A DNA stretch of 40,436 nt from NCBI RefSeq assembly GCF_014698335.1, contig NZ_JACJSV010000046.1:1-40436 (forward strand), given 5' to 3'. Shown piece after piece: positions 3,063 to 13,105 of the stretch. The stretch comes from Microcystis viridis FACHB-1342 (GTDB taxonomy: Bacteria > Cyanobacteriota > Cyanobacteriia > Cyanobacteriales > Microcystaceae). The number at the start of each line of letters is the position of its first letter. Position 1 is the stretch's first letter. The notes below the pieces were generated by a model. The model was not told the DNA's origin. It did not search any database and saw only the letters and a program-made list of their open reading frames with translations. The position numbers were made by a program, and so were the translations under genes.

Positions 3063-3557
3063 TTAACGAGGGGAAACGGTAATTTCCGAATCCTTAACGG
3101 TTAATTTACCGGAAGTGGCTTCTTGTAAAGCCGCCAAGGGCCAGAGAAAACCCGTTAACATTTTGCTGAGAGCGAGGGGAACATCGATGATGATTTCCTT
3201 CATTTCGGCATCTTTGTCGTCGCGCACGGCGATTAAATAGGCCCGACCAACCCAACCGATCCAACCGGTAATGTACAGGAATAGGATGCTAGGGATAAAG
3301 AAATCGCCCATGTGGTCCCAACGACCATCAACAATTAGGTGGGGATAGCCTTCCGGTCCACAGAGAGCTTGGGAGTAGGTTTGAGCGCGTTTGGCTCCCG
3401 ATTCGGGGTCAGGAGTGGTGTTGCGGAAACTCTTCGCTTTTTGTAGGAAAGCGGGATTTTCGCTACAAGGGGTCAGATTGGACAAATCAGCCGACGCTGG
3501 AGCGGCAAAGGTGAACCAGAGGGATAGCACCAGGGCCAGAGCGAACAATTTTCGCAT
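3063..3557 (-). CDS. psaF: Photosystem I subunit III (PsaF)
   Basis: The protein has 164 residues with a Sec signal peptide ([20 protein letters not shown], cleavage expected after ASA at about residue 23). The lumenal domain [17 protein letters not shown] carries the first of two conserved cysteines; the second is in [10 protein letters not shown] membrane segment around [20 protein letters not shown] follows, and the C-terminal tail [20 protein letters not shown] is characteristic. PsaF lies on the lumenal/donor side of photosystem I. Length and order before psaJ are as in other cyanobacteria. The promoter should lie in the AT-rich 3558-3689 interval. Confidence 0.97.
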
Positions 3558-3689
3558 AAATTGTTTCCTTTTGTTACGAAATATGAAGTTCTTTGTTCAA
3601 AAAGCGAACAATTTGATCGTACACGGAAAAAATCTTACTCCGATGAGGGGTACGAGTAAAGTTTCTATTACAAAACTATACGCAAAGCT

Positions 3690-4109
3690 TCAGATCCCGG
3701 TGATATGAACCACCACTTGTCTTTGGTGACGACTCTGACGATGTTCCCAGAGATAGATACCTTGCCAGATGCCTAAAACTAATTTACCCCTAGCGATCGG
3801 GATTTGTTCCGATGTTCGGGTTAGGACCGAGCGAATGTGAGCGGGCATATCGTCTGGCCCTTCGGTAGAGTGATAGTAGAGACTGCTATCTTCCGGGACT
3901 AACTTGGCGAAGAAATTGGCCAAATCGGTGAGAACATCGGGATCGGCATTTTCTTGGATCAGCAAGGAAGCGGAGGTGTGACAGACAAATATACTGCATA
4001 ATCCCGTCGTTATGCCCGATTCGGCTACGATCGCTTCTATGGGGGCAGTGAGACGATGGAAATTCTTGGGACTGGTGGTAATCGTCAGGGATTTTTGATA
4101 TTGACGCAT
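3690..4109 (-). CDS. YjbQ/UPF0047 family protein
   Basis: This 139-residue protein of the YjbQ/UPF0047 family carries the signature CHTSASLLIQENADPDVL, then YYHSTEGPDDMPAHIRSVL and LGIWQGIYLWEHR. The family is a trimeric beta-sandwich with conserved histidines. Members have been linked to a secondary thiamin phosphate synthase activity, but the physiological role is unsettled. The reading frame extends further upstream to 4247, but that part lies inside cobA and is proline-rich. The ATG at 4109 gives the normal family N-terminus (MRQYQKSLTI) and lies 10 bases after cobA, so the two genes are probably co-transcribed. Confidence 0.87.
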   Translation of the reverse strand: MRQYQKSLTITTSPKNFHRLTAPIEAIVAESGITTGLCSIFVCHTSASLLIQENADPDVLTDLANFFAKLVPEDSSLYYHSTEGPDDMPAHIRSVLTRTSEQIPIARGKLVLGIWQGIYLWEHRQSRHQRQVVVHITGI

Positions 4110-4119
4110 GGCAACCGAA

Positions 4120-4920
4120 TCAGGGAGAAATGGGGGTGGGGGGGATTGTCCTCGATAGCAAAGGTTGTCCCGCTTGCAAGAGATCGTGAAGGTCCACCAC
4201 TGCACCGATAACAGCGATCGCTGGGGCTTCAAAGCCGGTGGCTTCAATCTGGTCCATAATCGTGCTGAAAGTACCGATTAACTGCTGTTGTTGCGGTGTT
4301 GTTCCCCAGCGAATCAGGGCGATTGGTGTTTCTGGACTTCTGCCCGCCTTGGTTAACTCGCCGATAATATGGGGTAAATTATGCACACCCATGTAAACGA
4401 CAATTGTTTCCGCACCATGGGCGATCGCTGACCAGTTAACTTGAGGACGATATTTACCCGCCATCTCGTGGCCGGTGACGAAGGTAACGGAGGAACTATA
4501 ATCGCGATGGGTGAGGGGAATACCGGCGTAGGCAGGCACGGCAATTCCTGAAGTGATCCCCGGCACGATCTCGACGCTAATTCCGGCGGTGATCAGATCG
4601 AGCATTTCTTCACCCCCGCGACCAAAAACAAAGGGATCACCTCCCTTGAGACGAACAACCACGGCATTAGTCTGGGCCTTTTGGATCAGTAAATCGGTGA
4701 TTTCCTCCTGTACCAGAGAATGACGACCGCGACGCTTACCCCCATGGATTTGTTCGGCCTTGGGGTTAATCATGGCTAGAATCGAGGGGCTGACTAGGGC
4801 ATCATAGAGGACAACATCGGCGTTTTCTAAGAGAACTTTCGCTTTTAAGGTCAACAAACCGGGATCCCCGGGACCCGCACCGACGAGATAGACCTTACCG
4901 CAACTTTCTGATTGATTCAT
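4120..4920 (-). CDS. cobA: Uroporphyrinogen-III C-methyltransferase
   Basis: The protein has 266 residues. It has the SUMT signature VYLVGAGPGDPGLLTLKA at the N-terminus, RLKGGDPFVFGRGGEE near residue 95, VPGITSGIAVPAYAGIPLTHR, and VVYMGVHNL. It transfers two methyl groups from S-adenosylmethionine to uroporphyrinogen III, forming precorrin-2 for siroheme and cobalamin synthesis. The length matches the single-domain CobA type, without the CysG or HemD fusion. The ATG at 4920 directly precedes the tetrapyrrole methylase fold. It is followed by the yjbQ-family gene after 10 bases on the same strand. Confidence 0.95.
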   Translation of the reverse strand: MNQSESCGKVYLVGAGPGDPGLLTLKAKVLLENADVVLYDALVSPSILAMINPKAEQIHGGKRRGRHSLVQEEITDLLIQKAQTNAVVVRLKGGDPFVFGRGGEEMLDLITAGISVEIVPGITSGIAVPAYAGIPLTHRDYSSSVTFVTGHEMAGKYRPQVNWSAIAHGAETIVVYMGVHNLPHIIGELTKAGRSPETPIALIRWGTTPQQQQLIGTFSTIMDQIEATGFEAPAIAVIGAVVDLHDLLQAGQPLLSRTIPPTPISP

Positions 4921-5796: not shown

Positions 5797-6036
5797 TCAA
5801 GGCTCATTTAATAGAGATTCTAGGATTTCGGGTGTTAATCCTCTAGCTTCGGATCGATTGCTAATTTCGTCCATCAGCTTACCAAGAAAGTCCCTATCGT
5901 CTTTACTCGGCTTTCTCATCAACAGATCAATAAAAATCCGAACACGCTCTTTTTCTTCAGAGGATGCGGATTGATCGGCTGCCGCTGTTTTGGGACTGAC
6001 TTCGATCAAAATTTTGCTCATATTATTAAGGCTCAT
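5797..6036 (-). CDS. Orphan TA antitoxin-like protein; partner PIN toxin severed
   Basis: This 79-residue protein (core MSKILIEVSP, then RVRIFIDLLMRKP and ending GLTPEILESLLNEP) is a close paralogue of the antitoxin at 7696-7935, which is followed by an intact PIN toxin. Here the toxin start codon is still present at 5807-5805 with the same 11-base overlap. It encodes MSLEY as in the paralogue, then runs into the IS630 remnant at about 5791. The antitoxin is thus an orphan. Start candidates are the ATGs at 6036 and 6021. No known family name is assigned; the antitoxin role is inferred from gene order. Confidence 0.6.
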   Translation of the reverse strand: MSLNNMSKILIEVSPKTAAADQSASSEEKERVRIFIDLLMRKPSKDDRDFLGKLMDEISNRSEARGLTPEILESLLNEP

Positions 6037-6041
6037 TCTTG

Positions 6042-6107
6042 CTATGCTTCGGGGGGTTGTTTGACTAATTCGAGTGCTTGTTCATTGCTTAAGGTTAAGT
6101 TCCGCAT
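6042..6107 (-). pseudogene. Decayed copy of the shared antitoxin leader ORF
   Basis: A 21-codon frame begins MRNLTLSNEQALELVKQ and ends at a TAG. It matches the first 21 residues of the 80-residue antitoxins at 6963-7205 and 9352-9591. The TAG replaces the CAG found in the intact copies. It lies directly upstream of the orphan antitoxin, in the same place as the 24-residue leader at 7932-8006. Confidence 0.6.
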
Positions 6108-6147
6108 AGTCCATTTTTAATTTAATTATAACCAGCTAATTATGTCT

Positions 6148-6240
6148 TAATCAATATCAATTTAATATCCTTGCCATCACACCAGAACCTACGGAGGAGC
6201 TGATTACCCTTCCTTTTTATCATAAAGACTCCTTCGATCG
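6148..6240 (+). pseudogene. VapC C-terminal fragment (duplicate of 8588-8680)
   Basis: On the plus strand this reads LNQYQFNILAITPEPTEELI, then TLPFYHKDSFDR. It matches the C-terminal half of the VapC-type gene at 8387-8773 with few substitutions, then diverges. It has no N-terminal half and no antitoxin, so it is a duplicated fragment. Confidence 0.7.
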
Positions 6241-6263
6241 AGTATCGCGGGATCAACAGGATT

Positions 6264-6689
6264 TCAAGATTCTTCATCCGCAACGGGATCGATCACGAGT
6301 GCTTTAAATTCTGAGGCAGAAATTATAGTTGTCGATCCTAAATTATCTACTTCTTCAAAGTCTTTATCACCTGTGATCAAAAAGTCAGCATCACTTGTCA
6401 TCACACAAGCTAGAAATTTAGCATCCGATCGATCTCTAGGGAAATCAACGGTGCTGTGAACATCAATTAATCTAGGAACTGTATCGAAAATCCTATACCA
6501 TTCTCTTATCACTCCTTCCGACAGCTTAAACTTAGGACGGCTGACAACATCTTTATATTCAGTTAAAATAGCTTCGGAAACAATCCATTCGATTTTATTA
6601 GACTCGATCACGAATTGTATAACCGTTCTCGGCAACCTTCCTTTTAAAATTGCCGAAACTAGAATATTCGTATCGATCACGACTTTCAT
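6264..6689 (-). CDS. PIN-domain toxin (COG1569 type)
   Basis: This is a 141-residue PIN domain. The first catalytic aspartate is in KVVIDTNILVSA, the second acidic cluster is in FPRDRSDAKFLA, and the last is in LITGDKDF. PIN toxins of TA modules are Mg-dependent ribonucleases; the RNA target cannot be told from sequence. It overlaps the upstream antitoxin by four bases (ATGA), the usual sign of translational coupling. All expected catalytic residues appear present, so this may be a working toxin, unlike several neighbours. Confidence 0.82.
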   Translation of the reverse strand: MKVVIDTNILVSAILKGRLPRTVIQFVIESNKIEWIVSEAILTEYKDVVSRPKFKLSEGVIREWYRIFDTVPRLIDVHSTVDFPRDRSDAKFLACVMTSDADFLITGDKDFEEVDNLGSTTIISASEFKALVIDPVADEES

Positions 6690-6931
6690 TCGCCTCTCCG
6701 ATAGGCTTCAATTTCTGCGGCGATATCTTCTTCGGTAATATCCTGAACGCCGGGTAAGGATTGAGTTTTATCAAAGAGTTCTTTAACTTGTTGGTTTAAA
6801 GTCTGACGGTTTTGTTTGTCCGCTAAATTTAACAAAGCGTCTTTTAATAAATCTTCAACGCTGTTATAGTTTCCTGTCGCTAATTGAGAGTTAATTAATT
6901 GTTCTAATTCGGGATTTAAGGTAATATTCAT
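6686..6931 (-). CDS. ParD-like ribbon-helix-helix antitoxin
   Basis: The 81-residue protein MNITLNPELEQLINSQLATG continues YNSVEDLLKDALLNL and has an acidic tail ending EEDIAAEIEAYRRGE. The N-terminal strand plus two helices fit the ribbon-helix-helix antitoxins that pair with PIN or RelE toxins. Such proteins bind their own promoter and the toxin. The frame is open to 6988, but the ATG at 6931 gives the proper family N-terminus. It overlaps the PIN toxin by four bases. Confidence 0.75.
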   Translation of the reverse strand: MNITLNPELEQLINSQLATGNYNSVEDLLKDALLNLADKQNRQTLNQQVKELFDKTQSLPGVQDITEEDIAAEIEAYRRGE

Positions 6932-7283: not shown

Positions 7284-7706
7284 CTAACGGGAAAAGTCAT
7301 GATCTAGAAATTCTTGAATCGTTAAAATTGGGATTTCTCGAAATGGATTTAAAACTAATAGATCAGAATCGCCGCTTACAATACAGGTAGCTTGACCATC
7401 GATCGCTAGTTCTAAATACTGATTATTTTTCTCATCTCTGCAAACCTTGATTTTCTCTCGAATCACGACAATTTCCGCGGTTCTTTCTATCGCCGTTATA
7501 AATAGCCGCCTTTTTGCTGAGGAGGCATATCTATCGAATTTGGGACGATTGAAAACAGTGATCAATTCTAACAAAGTAGATTCGGACATTAAAAGCTTGC
7601 CGATATTTTGGGCTTTGTCTAATGCCTGACGAGCTTTGCCGTTTTTCGACAGAAGCGCGCTTACTAAAACGTTGGTATCGAGAATAAAAGAATATTCAAG
7701 GCTCAT
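7284..7706 (-). CDS. PIN-domain toxin
   Basis: This 140-residue PIN domain has the first aspartate in SFILDTNVLVSALL, an acidic block in CRDEKNNQYLELAIDG and the last in CIVSGDSDLLVL. It is predicted to be a toxin ribonuclease of a type II TA pair. It overlaps its antitoxin (7696-7935) by 11 bases. The same overlap survives at 5797-5807, where this type of toxin was cut off. Catalytic acids appear complete. Confidence 0.82.
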   Translation of the reverse strand: MSLEYSFILDTNVLVSALLSKNGKARQALDKAQNIGKLLMSESTLLELITVFNRPKFDRYASSAKRRLFITAIERTAEIVVIREKIKVCRDEKNNQYLELAIDGQATCIVSGDSDLLVLNPFREIPILTIQEFLDHDFSR

Positions 7707-8923: not shown

Positions 8924-9352
8924 TCATAATTCATGGTTATTATTTCGATCTAAAAAGTCCAAAAAGTCTTTTGCTTTCACGATCTGAATATTTTGATATT
9001 CAACCAGTGAAAGAAGATGTTTGTCCCCCGTGATAATATGGGTAGCCTTGCCAGCGATCGCACATTCTATGATCATATCGTCATCGGGATCGTTGGGAAC
9101 CGCTCTCAGTTGTCTTGTTATCGGAACAAGGCTAGAAAATTGACGAATTTCCGCGATATATTCTCTAAGTCCCCGTTCAGATATTTGAAATTTCTGCTGG
9201 AGTTTTTCGGTTAATTCGTCTAAAATCTCTTGGCAGGTTACTGAAGATACCGATCCCGTCTTCGCTAACGATAAGCAGGAAAATGTAGGGCTGCTTTTAG
9301 ACAGCCAAGCAGAGATTAATATATTTGTATGAAAAACAACTACATAGGTCAC
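8924..9352 (-). CDS. PIN-domain protein with first catalytic Asp replaced by His
   Basis: This 142-residue protein matches PIN-type toxins: VVFHTNILISAWLS at the N-terminus, PNDPDDDMIIECAIAG in the middle and HIITGDKHLLSL at the end. Where paralogues have V-I-D-T-N, this one has V-F-H-T-N, so the first metal-binding aspartate is His8 (codon CAT; GAT would be one change away). Nuclease activity is probably lost or altered. It starts at GTG, overlapping the antitoxin stop by one base (TAGTG). It could survive as a regulatory partner for the antitoxin. Confidence 0.78.
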   Translation of the reverse strand: MTYVVVFHTNILISAWLSKSSPTFSCLSLAKTGSVSSVTCQEILDELTEKLQQKFQISERGLREYIAEIRQFSSLVPITRQLRAVPNDPDDDMIIECAIAGKATHIITGDKHLLSLVEYQNIQIVKAKDFLDFLDRNNNHEL

Positions 9353-10052: not shown

Positions 10053-10772
10053 TTAAGTCCATTTAGTTAAAAAATCTTGTAGTGGCGGATATGGTATTCG
10101 TTTTAATTTACCAAAATTAGTATCTTTTTCATAATCATTATCTGCCAATGTTTCCCCTGCCCTTTGTTTTTTCCTGCCATTATTACTAATCACCTTGGGA
10201 ACATTATCAATCCATTTACCGCCAGTTTCTATCAATCGTTGATCTCTTGCTCGAATGCAATCGATCATTGAAAACACTTCAATGTCAACGATAAATGGTG
10301 AACAAAAACCATTTTCTTCTTGAAGTTGAATAGCTGCAATCAATAAAACATCTTTTTCGGCATCAATACTATCAATCGTAATATTTTCTTTTAGTCTTGC
10401 CGATGGTTCTCTTGGTGTCGGTGGTCTTTTGAGTTGTAAAGTTTTATTATCTACAAATAAACCTTTTAACTCTACTCTTTTGCCTGAAATATGAATGTAG
10501 TCGGGATAACTTTCTCGTTCTCCAATTTGACTGGGAGATTTCTCTAGTCCAATGTTTGTAATTTTTTCCTGATTTTGATAATTTAAAATTAATTGAATTT
10601 GGGGTAAAACTCCATCTAAAAGTGTGTTAACAATTACAGCCACTTGGCTAGGTTCAAATCCTTTTAGTGCTTGATCTGGAATACTCAACCAATCTATTTT
10701 TATGCCAATCAATGACTTAAAAATATTGCGTAGTGATTGAATTTCTTGTGGTGATATATCGGGCATAATCAT
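10053..10772 (-). CDS. Putative PD-(D/E)XK restriction endonuclease
   Basis: The 239-residue protein is not assigned to a named family. A PD-(D/E)XK-like core is visible: PD91 in SYPDYIHISGK, then E101-L-K103 in VELKGLF, with two possible following strands (DVLLIAAIQLQE and FIVDIEVFSMID). It overlaps the specificity-subunit gene by one base (TAATG), so the two are translationally coupled. Position as last gene of a methylase-specificity operon makes it the likely cleaving subunit. It lacks the ATPase/translocase motifs of HsdR. It is AT-rich, as is the whole operon, which suggests transfer. Alternative: an accessory protein of unknown role. Confidence 0.6.
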   Translation of the reverse strand: MIMPDISPQEIQSLRNIFKSLIGIKIDWLSIPDQALKGFEPSQVAVIVNTLLDGVLPQIQLILNYQNQEKITNIGLEKSPSQIGERESYPDYIHISGKRVELKGLFVDNKTLQLKRPPTPREPSARLKENITIDSIDAEKDVLLIAAIQLQEENGFCSPFIVDIEVFSMIDCIRARDQRLIETGGKWIDNVPKVISNNGRKKQRAGETLADNDYEKDTNFGKLKRIPYPPLQDFLTKWT

Positions 10773-11422
10773 TAATTATTTGATAAATTTGCCTGTTTCA
10801 TTATCTGTCTGCAAGTAAGAAGGTTGTGCCAAGATTGCTCTGCTAGAACTATTAAACTAGAGTTTATTTTTGTCCGTTCTTGCAATGTAGGAACGCTTAC
10901 AGGTATCTGTTCCAAATTCTCTACGCTTACTCTTGGACGTGTTCCACCACTCCCTGCTGGCATTTGATGGAGAAATAAAGCTGATTTGAGATAACACCAC
11001 CAAAAATAAGGTAGGTTATCTTTGGGTATGATCTCTACAAACTCTGAATTAATAGGATAGAATAAGGGACTATCTTTTTCGATCCAAGTTGCTTTTGGTG
11101 TTACTAAAACATTGCCAAGATAGGCTCTCATAGTGCCAAAAATTAGAGATTGTTCACCGACAACACTATATCGTCCTTTTGCCAAATAATTATCTTCTAG
11201 GACAAAGGTTAATAGTTCTCCTTTTGGAATGTTTTTATATTCTATCGGTGCAAAATGACACAAACTAATATCGCATTTATGATTGATAATTTTTTGAATA
11301 TCAACAAAATCTGATAGAGTATAACCTAATTCATTCTTTTTGTAATGATAGGGATTCCAGATACCTGCTTCTATCTTACAGGTATCTACTATTGTCAAAA
11401 AAGTATGCCCGTTTTTTTTCAT
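10772..11422 (-). CDS. Half-size HsdS-like specificity subunit (single TRD)
   Basis: The 216-residue protein has the conserved end of a type I target-recognition domain: GSGGTRPRVSVENLEQIPVS (about 157-176) followed by VPTLQERTKINSSLIVLAEQ, the start of a helical spacer. A normal HsdS (about 400 residues) has two target-recognition domains and two spacers. This has one, so it would have to dimerise and recognise a palindromic split site. It starts 11 bases after the methylase gene and overlaps the nuclease gene. DNA sequence specificity cannot be predicted here. Confidence 0.78.
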   Translation of the reverse strand: MKKNGHTFLTIVDTCKIEAGIWNPYHYKKNELGYTLSDFVDIQKIINHKCDISLCHFAPIEYKNIPKGELLTFVLEDNYLAKGRYSVVGEQSLIFGTMRAYLGNVLVTPKATWIEKDSPLFYPINSEFVEIIPKDNLPYFWWCYLKSALFLHQMPAGSGGTRPRVSVENLEQIPVSVPTLQERTKINSSLIVLAEQSWHNLLTCRQIMKQANLSNN

Positions 11423-11433
11423 TGTTTTTATAC

Positions 11434-12519
11434 TTAAATACCGAGAACTTTGGCGACTTCCTTGTTTTCTAGCAATGTTTTTAGATCGTTGCTTTCTGTC
11501 TTTTTTTGCTGATTGTTCAGGGGGATGCCAATTGAAGAAATATTAGAAAAAATCGTCTTTTTATTTATTGTATTTTTACCTTTTTTGTCCAAGACAATAA
11601 TATCGGCACGAGTCGTGGTATTTGAAGTTGATTGAAAAACGCCTTCAGGTAATATTATAACGGCAGTTAATAACCAACTTTTCTCGACACTTTGACGTAA
11701 CTTTTCGTACTCTTTATTTGAGATAATTGAATGAGGCAAAAGACAAACTAAACGTCCGTCAGGCTTTAATAACTCTAGAGCTAAATCAATAAATAGAGCA
11801 TCGCTATTTCTATAGCCTAAATTGAATAAGTCGCTTTGAGATTCTAACAAGTCTATTGGCAGTGAAAACGGTGGATTTGCTACAATGTAATCTACTTGAC
11901 CAAATAGTGTTTGAATTTCTTGATCGGGACGATAAATATTCGACGTAAATAGAGAAATATTGTGACTTTGGTTAGTATTTATTCTTAAAACTAATTCCGT
12001 TAAACAGACCAACATCTCATCTACATCATTGGCAATGAGATGACAAGGTTTATATTGCCAACGTTCTCCCGCTTCTTTTAGAAAAGTTCCACTGCCACAA
12101 GTAGGATCCATTATTAAAGCATCCGATTTAATAGGAAGCATACTGACCATTTGTTCTGCTATTGCGTGTGGGGTAAAAAACTTTCCCGTAATGTCTCTGA
12201 ATCTTTTAGCTAAAAAGTATTGATAAAAAATAGGTAGGTTTTTTCCATTGACATCGTTTTTTATCTGACAATAAATTATTTCTTGAAGAGTCTTGTCTTG
12301 AAATACAATTTCTGATAAGCATCGCCCTTTCATAATAATCTTATCGAGCTTTTTAGTAGTTTCAATGGCAAAAACATCAATGTAAGAATAGGCAATTACA
12401 TTGAATACATCTTCCCCTTCATAGCCAAACTGTCTAAAAGCTAACTCTATATCTTTCAGAGCTTTAGTTTCTAACATTCTTTTACCTCGCACTTTTTGAT
12501 CAAGATTTAGATTATACAT
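11434..12519 (-). CDS. HsdM-like N6-adenine DNA methyltransferase
   Basis: The 361-residue protein has FFTPHAIAEQMV (about 114-125), the SAM-binding motif DPTCGSGTFL (138-147), the catalytic NPPF (215-218) and ALFIDLALELLKPDGRLVCLLP. These are hallmarks of gamma-class adenine methylases of the type I HsdM/N6_Mtase family. It is shorter than most HsdM proteins (about 500). An AGGAG overlapping the stop of the upstream gene precedes the ATG at 12519; the ATG at 12477 is an alternative start. It is predicted to methylate adenine in the site chosen by the HsdS-like partner. Confidence 0.85.
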   Translation of the reverse strand: MYNLNLDQKVRGKRMLETKALKDIELAFRQFGYEGEDVFNVIAYSYIDVFAIETTKKLDKIIMKGRCLSEIVFQDKTLQEIIYCQIKNDVNGKNLPIFYQYFLAKRFRDITGKFFTPHAIAEQMVSMLPIKSDALIMDPTCGSGTFLKEAGERWQYKPCHLIANDVDEMLVCLTELVLRINTNQSHNISLFTSNIYRPDQEIQTLFGQVDYIVANPPFSLPIDLLESQSDLFNLGYRNSDALFIDLALELLKPDGRLVCLLPHSIISNKEYEKLRQSVEKSWLLTAVIILPEGVFQSTSNTTTRADIIVLDKKGKNTINKKTIFSNISSIGIPLNNQQKKTESNDLKTLLENKEVAKVLGI

Positions 12520-12531
12520 TTTGTTAATCTC

Positions 12532-13020
12532 CTAAAAACCTTCTGGCTTTAAGACAGGACGATAACGTAATTTGATAATAACAGAACCACTAAACCTAAA
12601 ACTTGATTGAAAAGCAATAAAATTGAGTTGCTGAGTCATTATTCCATTATTACAAATCTGGTTCATTATTATTTCATAATTCATTTTAAATTCAGAACCA
12701 TTTTTATCAATTAGAAATATAAAATCAGCACATCTTCTATTAGGATTGTCTCTAGATGGATCATCTTCATAACAAAAATCTTCGGTTTTATAGATAACCG
12801 AACCATTATTACACTTAATAGCGAAAAAAACGCTAGTAATTCCTGATTCTAAAACTTGACAATTATATTTTCCTTGCTGAGTTTCGATAAAACCAATTGC
12901 TTCAAACCAAGTGTTATTGATTAATCTTTGCGGCCAGTCCTCTGGACATGAATTAGCAAAAGCAGCATAGTTTTCTAAACTTATTATTATGCTTATAGCT
13001 TTTGTTAACCATTTTAACAT
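12532..13020 (-). CDS. Small uncharacterised protein leading the R-M operon
   Basis: I do not recognise this 162-residue protein. It has a lysine-containing hydrophobic N-terminus (MLKWLTKAISIIISLENYAA), ending near AFANSCPEDW, that resembles a signal peptide. The rest is rich in strand-forming residues, Asn, and several cysteines (CPEDW, YNCQV, KCNNG, FCYEDD, RRCADF, QICNN), compatible with an exported disulfide-bonded domain. The stop codon overlaps the methylase ribosome-binding site, so it is probably the first gene of the restriction-modification operon. Whether it belongs to the system or hitchhikes is unknown. Confidence 0.6.
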   Translation of the reverse strand: MLKWLTKAISIIISLENYAAFANSCPEDWPQRLINNTWFEAIGFIETQQGKYNCQVLESGITSVFFAIKCNNGSVIYKTEDFCYEDDPSRDNPNRRCADFIFLIDKNGSEFKMNYEIIMNQICNNGIMTQQLNFIAFQSSFRFSGSVIIKLRYRPVLKPEGF

Positions 13021-13061
13021 TTCAAATTTTCCTTTGCATAAGGATTAATTATAGTAGTTTT

Positions 13062-13092
13062 ATTGTAGGTTAACTTTATGTTAACCTACAAT
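13062..13092 (-). terminator. Perfect hairpin downstream of gltB
   Basis: Arms of 13 bases (ATTGTAGGTTAAC, 13062-13074, and its complement 13080-13092) have a five-base loop. It lies 14 bases beyond the gltB stop. The T-run (ATTTTTG) follows it on the plus strand rather than in the direction of gltB, so a terminator role for gltB is likely from position but not classic. Confidence 0.5.
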
Positions 13093-13105
13093 ATTTTTGT
13101 ACTAA

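Follow-up and report, generated by a model that had tools for sequence, protein, structure and literature searches.

The operon described here lies on the minus strand of a 40,436-nucleotide contig of Microcystis viridis FACHB-1342, referred to below, at its full length, as the window. It comprises three tightly packed genes (Table 1), which we call M, S and R. The gap between M and S is 11 bases and the start of R overlaps S in TAATG, exactly as the original prediction from this DNA had it; the methylase motifs that it read in M (DPTCGSGTFL and NPPF) are both present, and the third protein does carry the proposed PD-X9-ELK signature, as P90-D91-X9-E101-L102-K103. The extent first assigned to the operon, 10053 to 13020, is sound for the trio and fails at its far end, where it takes in an unrelated open reading frame (ORF) of 162 aa. 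This ORF has no match in Pfam, NCBIfam or PADLOC. Among 12 Microcystis genomes it stands behind gltS in G000 and G001 only; in G003 M is found behind gltS and the ORF is absent there, and the remaining nine match the window behind gltS, over the 1.5 kb seen, neither in the ORF nor in M. A fourth subunit is thus ruled out by the absence of the ORF behind gltS in G003 and nine other genomes and by its lack of a family match, and from the pattern of presence in these aligned sequences M-S-R is the unit and the ORF a bystander. An imperfect palindrome of 33 bases lies beside the ORF. Apart from gltS (1524 aa) no ORF of the window exceeds 801 aa, and there is therefore no HsdR-sized gene within it. 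The window also encodes glutamate synthase and PsaF. Downstream of R are three PIN_3-domain ORFs of toxin-antitoxin type, and the DNA between them is repeated, three segments matching the same stretch of one relative.

Table 1. Features of the window, with positions counted from its first nucleotide
Feature	Position	Strand	Description
PIN_3 ORF 1	6264-6689	minus	toxin-antitoxin type
PIN_3 ORF 2	7284-7706	minus	toxin-antitoxin type
PIN_3 ORF 3	8924-9352	minus	toxin-antitoxin type
Repeated segment 1	near 6039-7251		matches one relative's stretch
Repeated segment 2	near 7938-8056		matches the same stretch
Repeated segment 3	near 9358-9641		matches the same stretch
R gene	10053..10772	minus	239 aa, PD-(D/E)XK endonuclease (predicted)
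S gene	10772..11422	minus	216 aa, half-size specificity subunit
M gene	11434..12519	minus	361 aa, N6 methylase subunit
162-aa ORF	12532-13020		between gltS and M; no known family
Imperfect palindrome	13061-13093		33 bases

M matches PF02384 (N6_Mtase, E 3.9e-27) and is a gamma-class (NPPF) N6-adenine methylase subunit, conserved among the loci that share the window's gene layout (class I, below). S, encoded by a gene of its own, matches Methylase_S (E 1.4e-6), and its model consists of one TRD and one C-terminal helix. In a structure comparison this model aligns to one half of the PacII S protein (residues 10-186 of 369), so that the single TRD claimed for the HsdS-like protein is borne out by a fold that is half an HsdS. 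A decayed copy is seen in a genus-mate (G001; locus L196, 125-763), where M is present, the S frame keeps about 173 residues before running into a different, foreign C-terminal end, and R was not found; behind this copy lie small ORFs of HTH and HigB-like type, their functions guessed from sequence.

In R, residues P90, D91, E101, L102 and K103 are invariant in all 28 rows of alignment A3, which is the alignment that was folded and equals alignment A2 minus L017, L031 and L035. P90 and D91 are nearly invariant in the 31 rows of A2, where L017 and L031 contain unread bases; L018, L036-L039 and L001-L007 are in neither alignment. The AlphaFold model of R places ExK on strand 99-107 and D91 just before strand 92-94, and R has its PD...(D/E)xK at the core sheet, as the PD-(D/E)XK superfamily requires. 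The model resembles EcoRV-like Type II enzymes (SwaI, HincII), and restriction enzymes of nine different names make up 49 of its 50 VIA rows, with middling Z. A Type I system that has lost its HsdR is ruled out by this predicted fold of R together with the one-TRD S.

Sequence searches place R in no family: there is no match in the PDB, none in Pfam, NCBIfam or PADLOC at E<=0.1, and only a single Pfam match below 0.1 (at 0.065) among 31 R relatives. Foldseek and a BFVD fold search with the R model likewise return no match at E<=0.001. This want of a family match and the weak Foldseek E-values are what one could cite for regarding R as something other than a nuclease, with M-S an orphan methylase beside an unrelated third gene. 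We consider this very improbable, given that R is linked to M and S across phyla, that PD...ExK is invariant and nearly every VIA row names a restriction enzyme, and that an orphan methylase would not cause the loss of sites described below. R is very likely the cutting enzyme of the system, judged from its sequence and predicted structure. Assignment of R to a non-nuclease family, which had been named in advance as a result that would overturn the proposal, did not come true: the predicted fold is EcoRV-like and PD...ELK is invariant.

R is rare among close relatives of its host, occurring in 3 of 59 genomes of near kin and in 3 of 386 cyanobacteria (the window's own genome included in both counts); Microcystis sp. 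LSC13-02 has an R that is 98% identical. Farther afield, a profile scan of genome contigs found R at 32 genome loci across many phyla, two of them archaeal MAGs, many of these loci being MAG contigs that could be mis-binned. A separate profile scan gave three viral contigs with R, and it is also present in six Streptococcus phage records. Plasmids searched by tblastn yielded no match, and a scan of viral sequences with the single protein confirmed none of seven candidates. M, S and R are syntenic in 25 of the 32 genome loci, in two layouts. Ten loci (L008-L015, L017, L018) have collinear, full-length M-S-R as in the window (class I), and L016, in which S is only a fragment beside M and R, is counted with this layout. 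In class II, M-S is divergent from an HTH gene and R; this arrangement is found at 15 genome loci (L019, L021-L024, L026-L029, L031-L035 and L037), with the HTH gene before R in all 15, and also at L006, from a phage record. Crocosphaera watsonii WH 8501 is among the carriers, and Sporofaciens musculi has an R of class II. In the viral loci L041 and L042, M-S is convergent with R and there is no HTH match. Six genome loci are without intact M and S: L020 has two M fragments, L025, L030 and L036 lie near contig ends, R is split over two frames in L038, and L039 holds an R fragment only; viral L040 is also without them. The other result named in advance as damaging, that the trio would not be conserved, has thus not materialized, full M-S accompanying R at 25 of 32 genome loci. 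Three single loci deserve mention. L040 carries an intact R relative (5986-6789) among the phage-like genes of a viral contig of 51.7 kb; neither M nor S is matched within about 6 kb of this R, which is perhaps a phage-borne orphan restriction enzyme. At L031, in a Nitrososphaera MAG, the HTH regulator and R form one ORF (317-1282) in a stretch that has unread bases. At L006 a gene for a PvuRts1I-like/SRA modification-dependent nuclease (3324-4163) adjoins S, and this Streptococcus phage record also carries tet(O).

Avoidance in genomes is the basis on which we infer the recognition site, which is most likely GACNNNNGTC, the PshAI site (GACN4GTC). We scanned all 512 split palindromes made of a trimer, 3-10 free bases and the complement. 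GACN4GTC has the lowest O/E of the 512 in pooled stretches of three cyanobacterial carriers (13 for 106; sixth by z), ranking first in G000 (6/65) and G189 (2/26) and ninth in G134 (5/16); in genomes without R it ranks second in G002 (7/40) and 210th in G073 (20/22). Low values for GACN3GTC and GACN6GTC are shared by cyanobacterial carriers and by cyanobacteria that have no R. The BsaBI site GATN4ATC was rejected on its counts in these three carriers (327/301, 138/126 and 95/121), as was the AhdI site GACN5GTC (41/65, 9/26 and 7/16). G134 is the only genome of its genus; nine of its 47 remaining GACN4GTC sites read GACTTTAGTC (contig C44, 2426-3897) and recur mostly every 103-104 bases, in the manner of a tandem repeat.

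Depletion specific to N4 (GACN4GTC against GACN5GTC) is found in 5 of 26 other carrier genomes. Four of the five are from Lachnospiraceae, with counts of 7/484, 6/322, 10/376 and 59/588, and the fifth, with 89/664, is the cyanobacterium of L030. There is no such depletion in the other 21 (N4/N5 0.68-1.46), which include every one of the seven class I genomes from outside the cyanobacteria (G418-G424) and also G443, with a contig (L037) that bears the same Lachnospiraceae label as the four depleted genomes; recent acquisition, errors of binning or genuine exceptions may account for these 21. Further contrasts come from comparisons with relatives, where rankings among 150 family genomes and among 24 genomes, like those for genera g41 and g57, were read off tables. 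Two of 150 genomes in the G433 family carry R, and these two carriers have 6 and 10 GACN4GTC sites whereas the other 148 have at least 36. Random labelling, with kinship ignored, would put both carriers in the two lowest places of 150 once in 11,175 draws; G433 and G435 were known beforehand to be low, so only the contrast with the other 148 genomes is new. In 366 kb of G433, GACN4GTC (4 for 39.4; other spacings 24-47) comes first both among the 512 palindromes and among 32,768 trimer pairs. The class I carrier G027 has 36 sites for 701 of the reversed-pattern control, the lowest of 24, while its genus-mate G033, without R, has 275 for 599.

At the same time, avoidance is genus-wide in Microcystis and in g41, where genomes without R (34/634 in G002, 53/1132 in G278) show the same scarcity of the site as carriers do (40/732 in G000, 53/748 in G189). 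In genus g57, G197, G287 and G295 have only 8, 13 and 9 GACN4GTC sites in 5.7-6.3 Mb, with no R relative found, and because the site is nearly absent there without R, its loss is probably due to another system with the same site. Avoidance without R in these three genera, and the 21 undepleted carriers of 26, favor a reading in which the trio is of the kind we propose below but recognizes another site, the avoidance having been left by other systems in the same genomes. This we hold to be unlikely, since depletion is specific to carriers in two unrelated groups (both carriers lowest of 150; G027 versus G033) and to the exact spacing, and since blind scans arrived at GACN4GTC twice.

The three proteins diverge together. 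Identities to the window's R, M and S among class I loci are 79, 66 and 73% at L009, 65, 49 and 50% at L012, and 60, 43 and 40% at L017, and R, M and S of class II diverge together likewise. S is best conserved in its TRD part and least in its C-terminal helix, and no TRD switching was seen within a class. Freely varying TRDs next to R and M that remain similar are usual in Type I systems. Because S co-diverges with R and M here, whereas TRDs vary freely in Type I, S and R look locked to one site, their specificity fixed unlike that of Type I. An R that has no site recognition of its own and docks on M2S2, forming a minimal Type I-like restriction complex without a translocase, would suit the Type I-like character of M and S, the tight coupling of the S and R genes in class I, and the finding that R is more conserved than S in every comparison with a full S, as expected of a shared nuclease subunit. 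Nevertheless, between classes R is 44-51% identical as against 27-31% for M and 19-24% for S (6 of 18 class II loci), so that no single M-S surface constrains it; TRDs do not switch within a class, though they would be free to if S alone set the specificity; the predicted fold of R is that of self-sufficient Type II enzymes; and the REases of known Type 1½ systems are described in PMC4081073 as separate and Type IIP-like. We therefore judge docking to be decidedly unlikely, and R that reads its own site remains our preferred reading.

In the R, M and S trees (the R tree omitting L035 and L037) a branch with full support separates the two classes, and its length in changes per column is 1.2 in R, 6.1 in M and 10.0 in S. 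Three class II S proteins were tested against Pfam and gave no match at E 0.01; class II S is tied to class I S by profile comparison only (hhalign probability 82.6, E 9.6e-6). An attractive idea, plausible though somewhat short of probable on these comparisons, is that the whole methylation module (M-S) was exchanged beside an unnamed REase family that is locked on GACN4GTC and retained this site throughout. Such an exchange would explain both the identities of R and S between classes and the three branch lengths. If it is true, GAC is the half-site of two far-diverged S lineages alike, and M-S was replaced while the nuclease stayed in place, with no self-destruction. Alternatively, the two modules may go back to old common descent with faster change in M and S, because the M and S branches are saturated, M and S outpace R within class I, and the two S groups show profile kinship.

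Overall, we believe it highly probable that the trio is a Type II R-M system of the 'Type 1½' or Type IIH kind, with an M2S2 methylase, an independent REase and GACN4GTC as the most likely site. Synteny, the R and S folds and the avoidance of GACN4GTC lend support to the original prediction that M, half-S and the small nuclease work jointly on a split palindrome. The general pathway can be outlined by analogy. Two M and two half-S, numbers taken from AhdI, would assemble into an M2S2 methylase that would modify a base in each half of the symmetric split site, presumably adenine as in AhdI. R would act apart from this methylase as a PD-(D/E)XK enzyme of Type IIP-like kind, probably homodimeric, that would read the same site on its own, without M and S, and cut it when unmethylated, with no ATP-driven translocation. 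The cut would fall inside the gap and, if R resembles the blunt cutters EcoRV, HincII and SwaI in this, might leave blunt ends.

Regardless of the specific mechanism, the system is ordinary in kind, and its points of interest are a widespread unnamed REase family and the possible exchange of M-S under a fixed site. A conserved unnamed family, present in bacteria, archaeal MAGs and phage contigs, becomes a putative restriction enzyme with a predicted site, and it provides natural systems for studying how a restriction nuclease remains in step with a bipartite methylase that is independent of it. Provided that the site is right, carriers should be easier to enter for DNA that lacks GACN4GTC. Some carriers have lost the site almost completely (6 in 3.3 Mb), a strong example of the avoidance of a restriction site. 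In the literature we found neither the R family nor its two partners nor avoidance of GACN4GTC described; REBASE, outside this search, may hold them. A search for GACN4GTC itself gave two papers, PMC3874165 and PMC1274295, the latter on the regulation of nitrogen oxide metabolism.

Among known systems, Type I R-M shares with the trio the families of M and S and an S that folds like one HsdS half; it differs in that the window has a one-TRD S, a small, EcoRV-like R and no HsdR, and in that TRDs look fixed here and are variable there. SwaI, HincII and EcoRV share with R the predicted fold and PD...ExK, at identities of only 9-12% in structural alignments. The sites of these three enzymes are continuous. 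The trio has the separate gamma-class M (NPPF) and S genes and the single-TRD S of Type IIH, and its third gene, by motif and predicted fold, fits a separate Type IIP-like REase. What had been called an unusual combination is thus an already published organisation, that of AhdI, PshAI and BsaBI. AhdI is described in the accessible part of PMC4081073 as a Type IIP-like REase with a 2M+2S methylase, 'Type 1½' and later Type IIH, a label now rare; in that of PMC2878638 its S is 25 kDa and its M 60 kDa. It resembles the window trio in this REase and in an M2S2 methylase with half-S, and resembles class II, rather than the window, in having a regulator of transcription, according to the title of a cited paper. 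It differs in its site, GACN5GTC, in its larger M (the 361-aa M of the window is about 40 kDa), and in its regulator, for which the window operon has no gene. The AhdI regulator is a C protein. A study of R-M systems in bloom-forming cyanobacteria, PMC8262939, uses 'IIH' for single polypeptides, unlike PMC4081073, and neither PshAI nor hsdS occurs in its available text. M.BsaBI, M.PshAI and M.AhdI are each given as two gamma-M and two S in the accessible sections of PMC3874165, whose Table 3 has M.PshAI as two gamma-M and two [GAC] with the site GAC N4 GTC. Compared by this description, with the kinship of R.PshAI set aside, PshAI has the separate M and half-S of the window trio and the same site that we infer for it.
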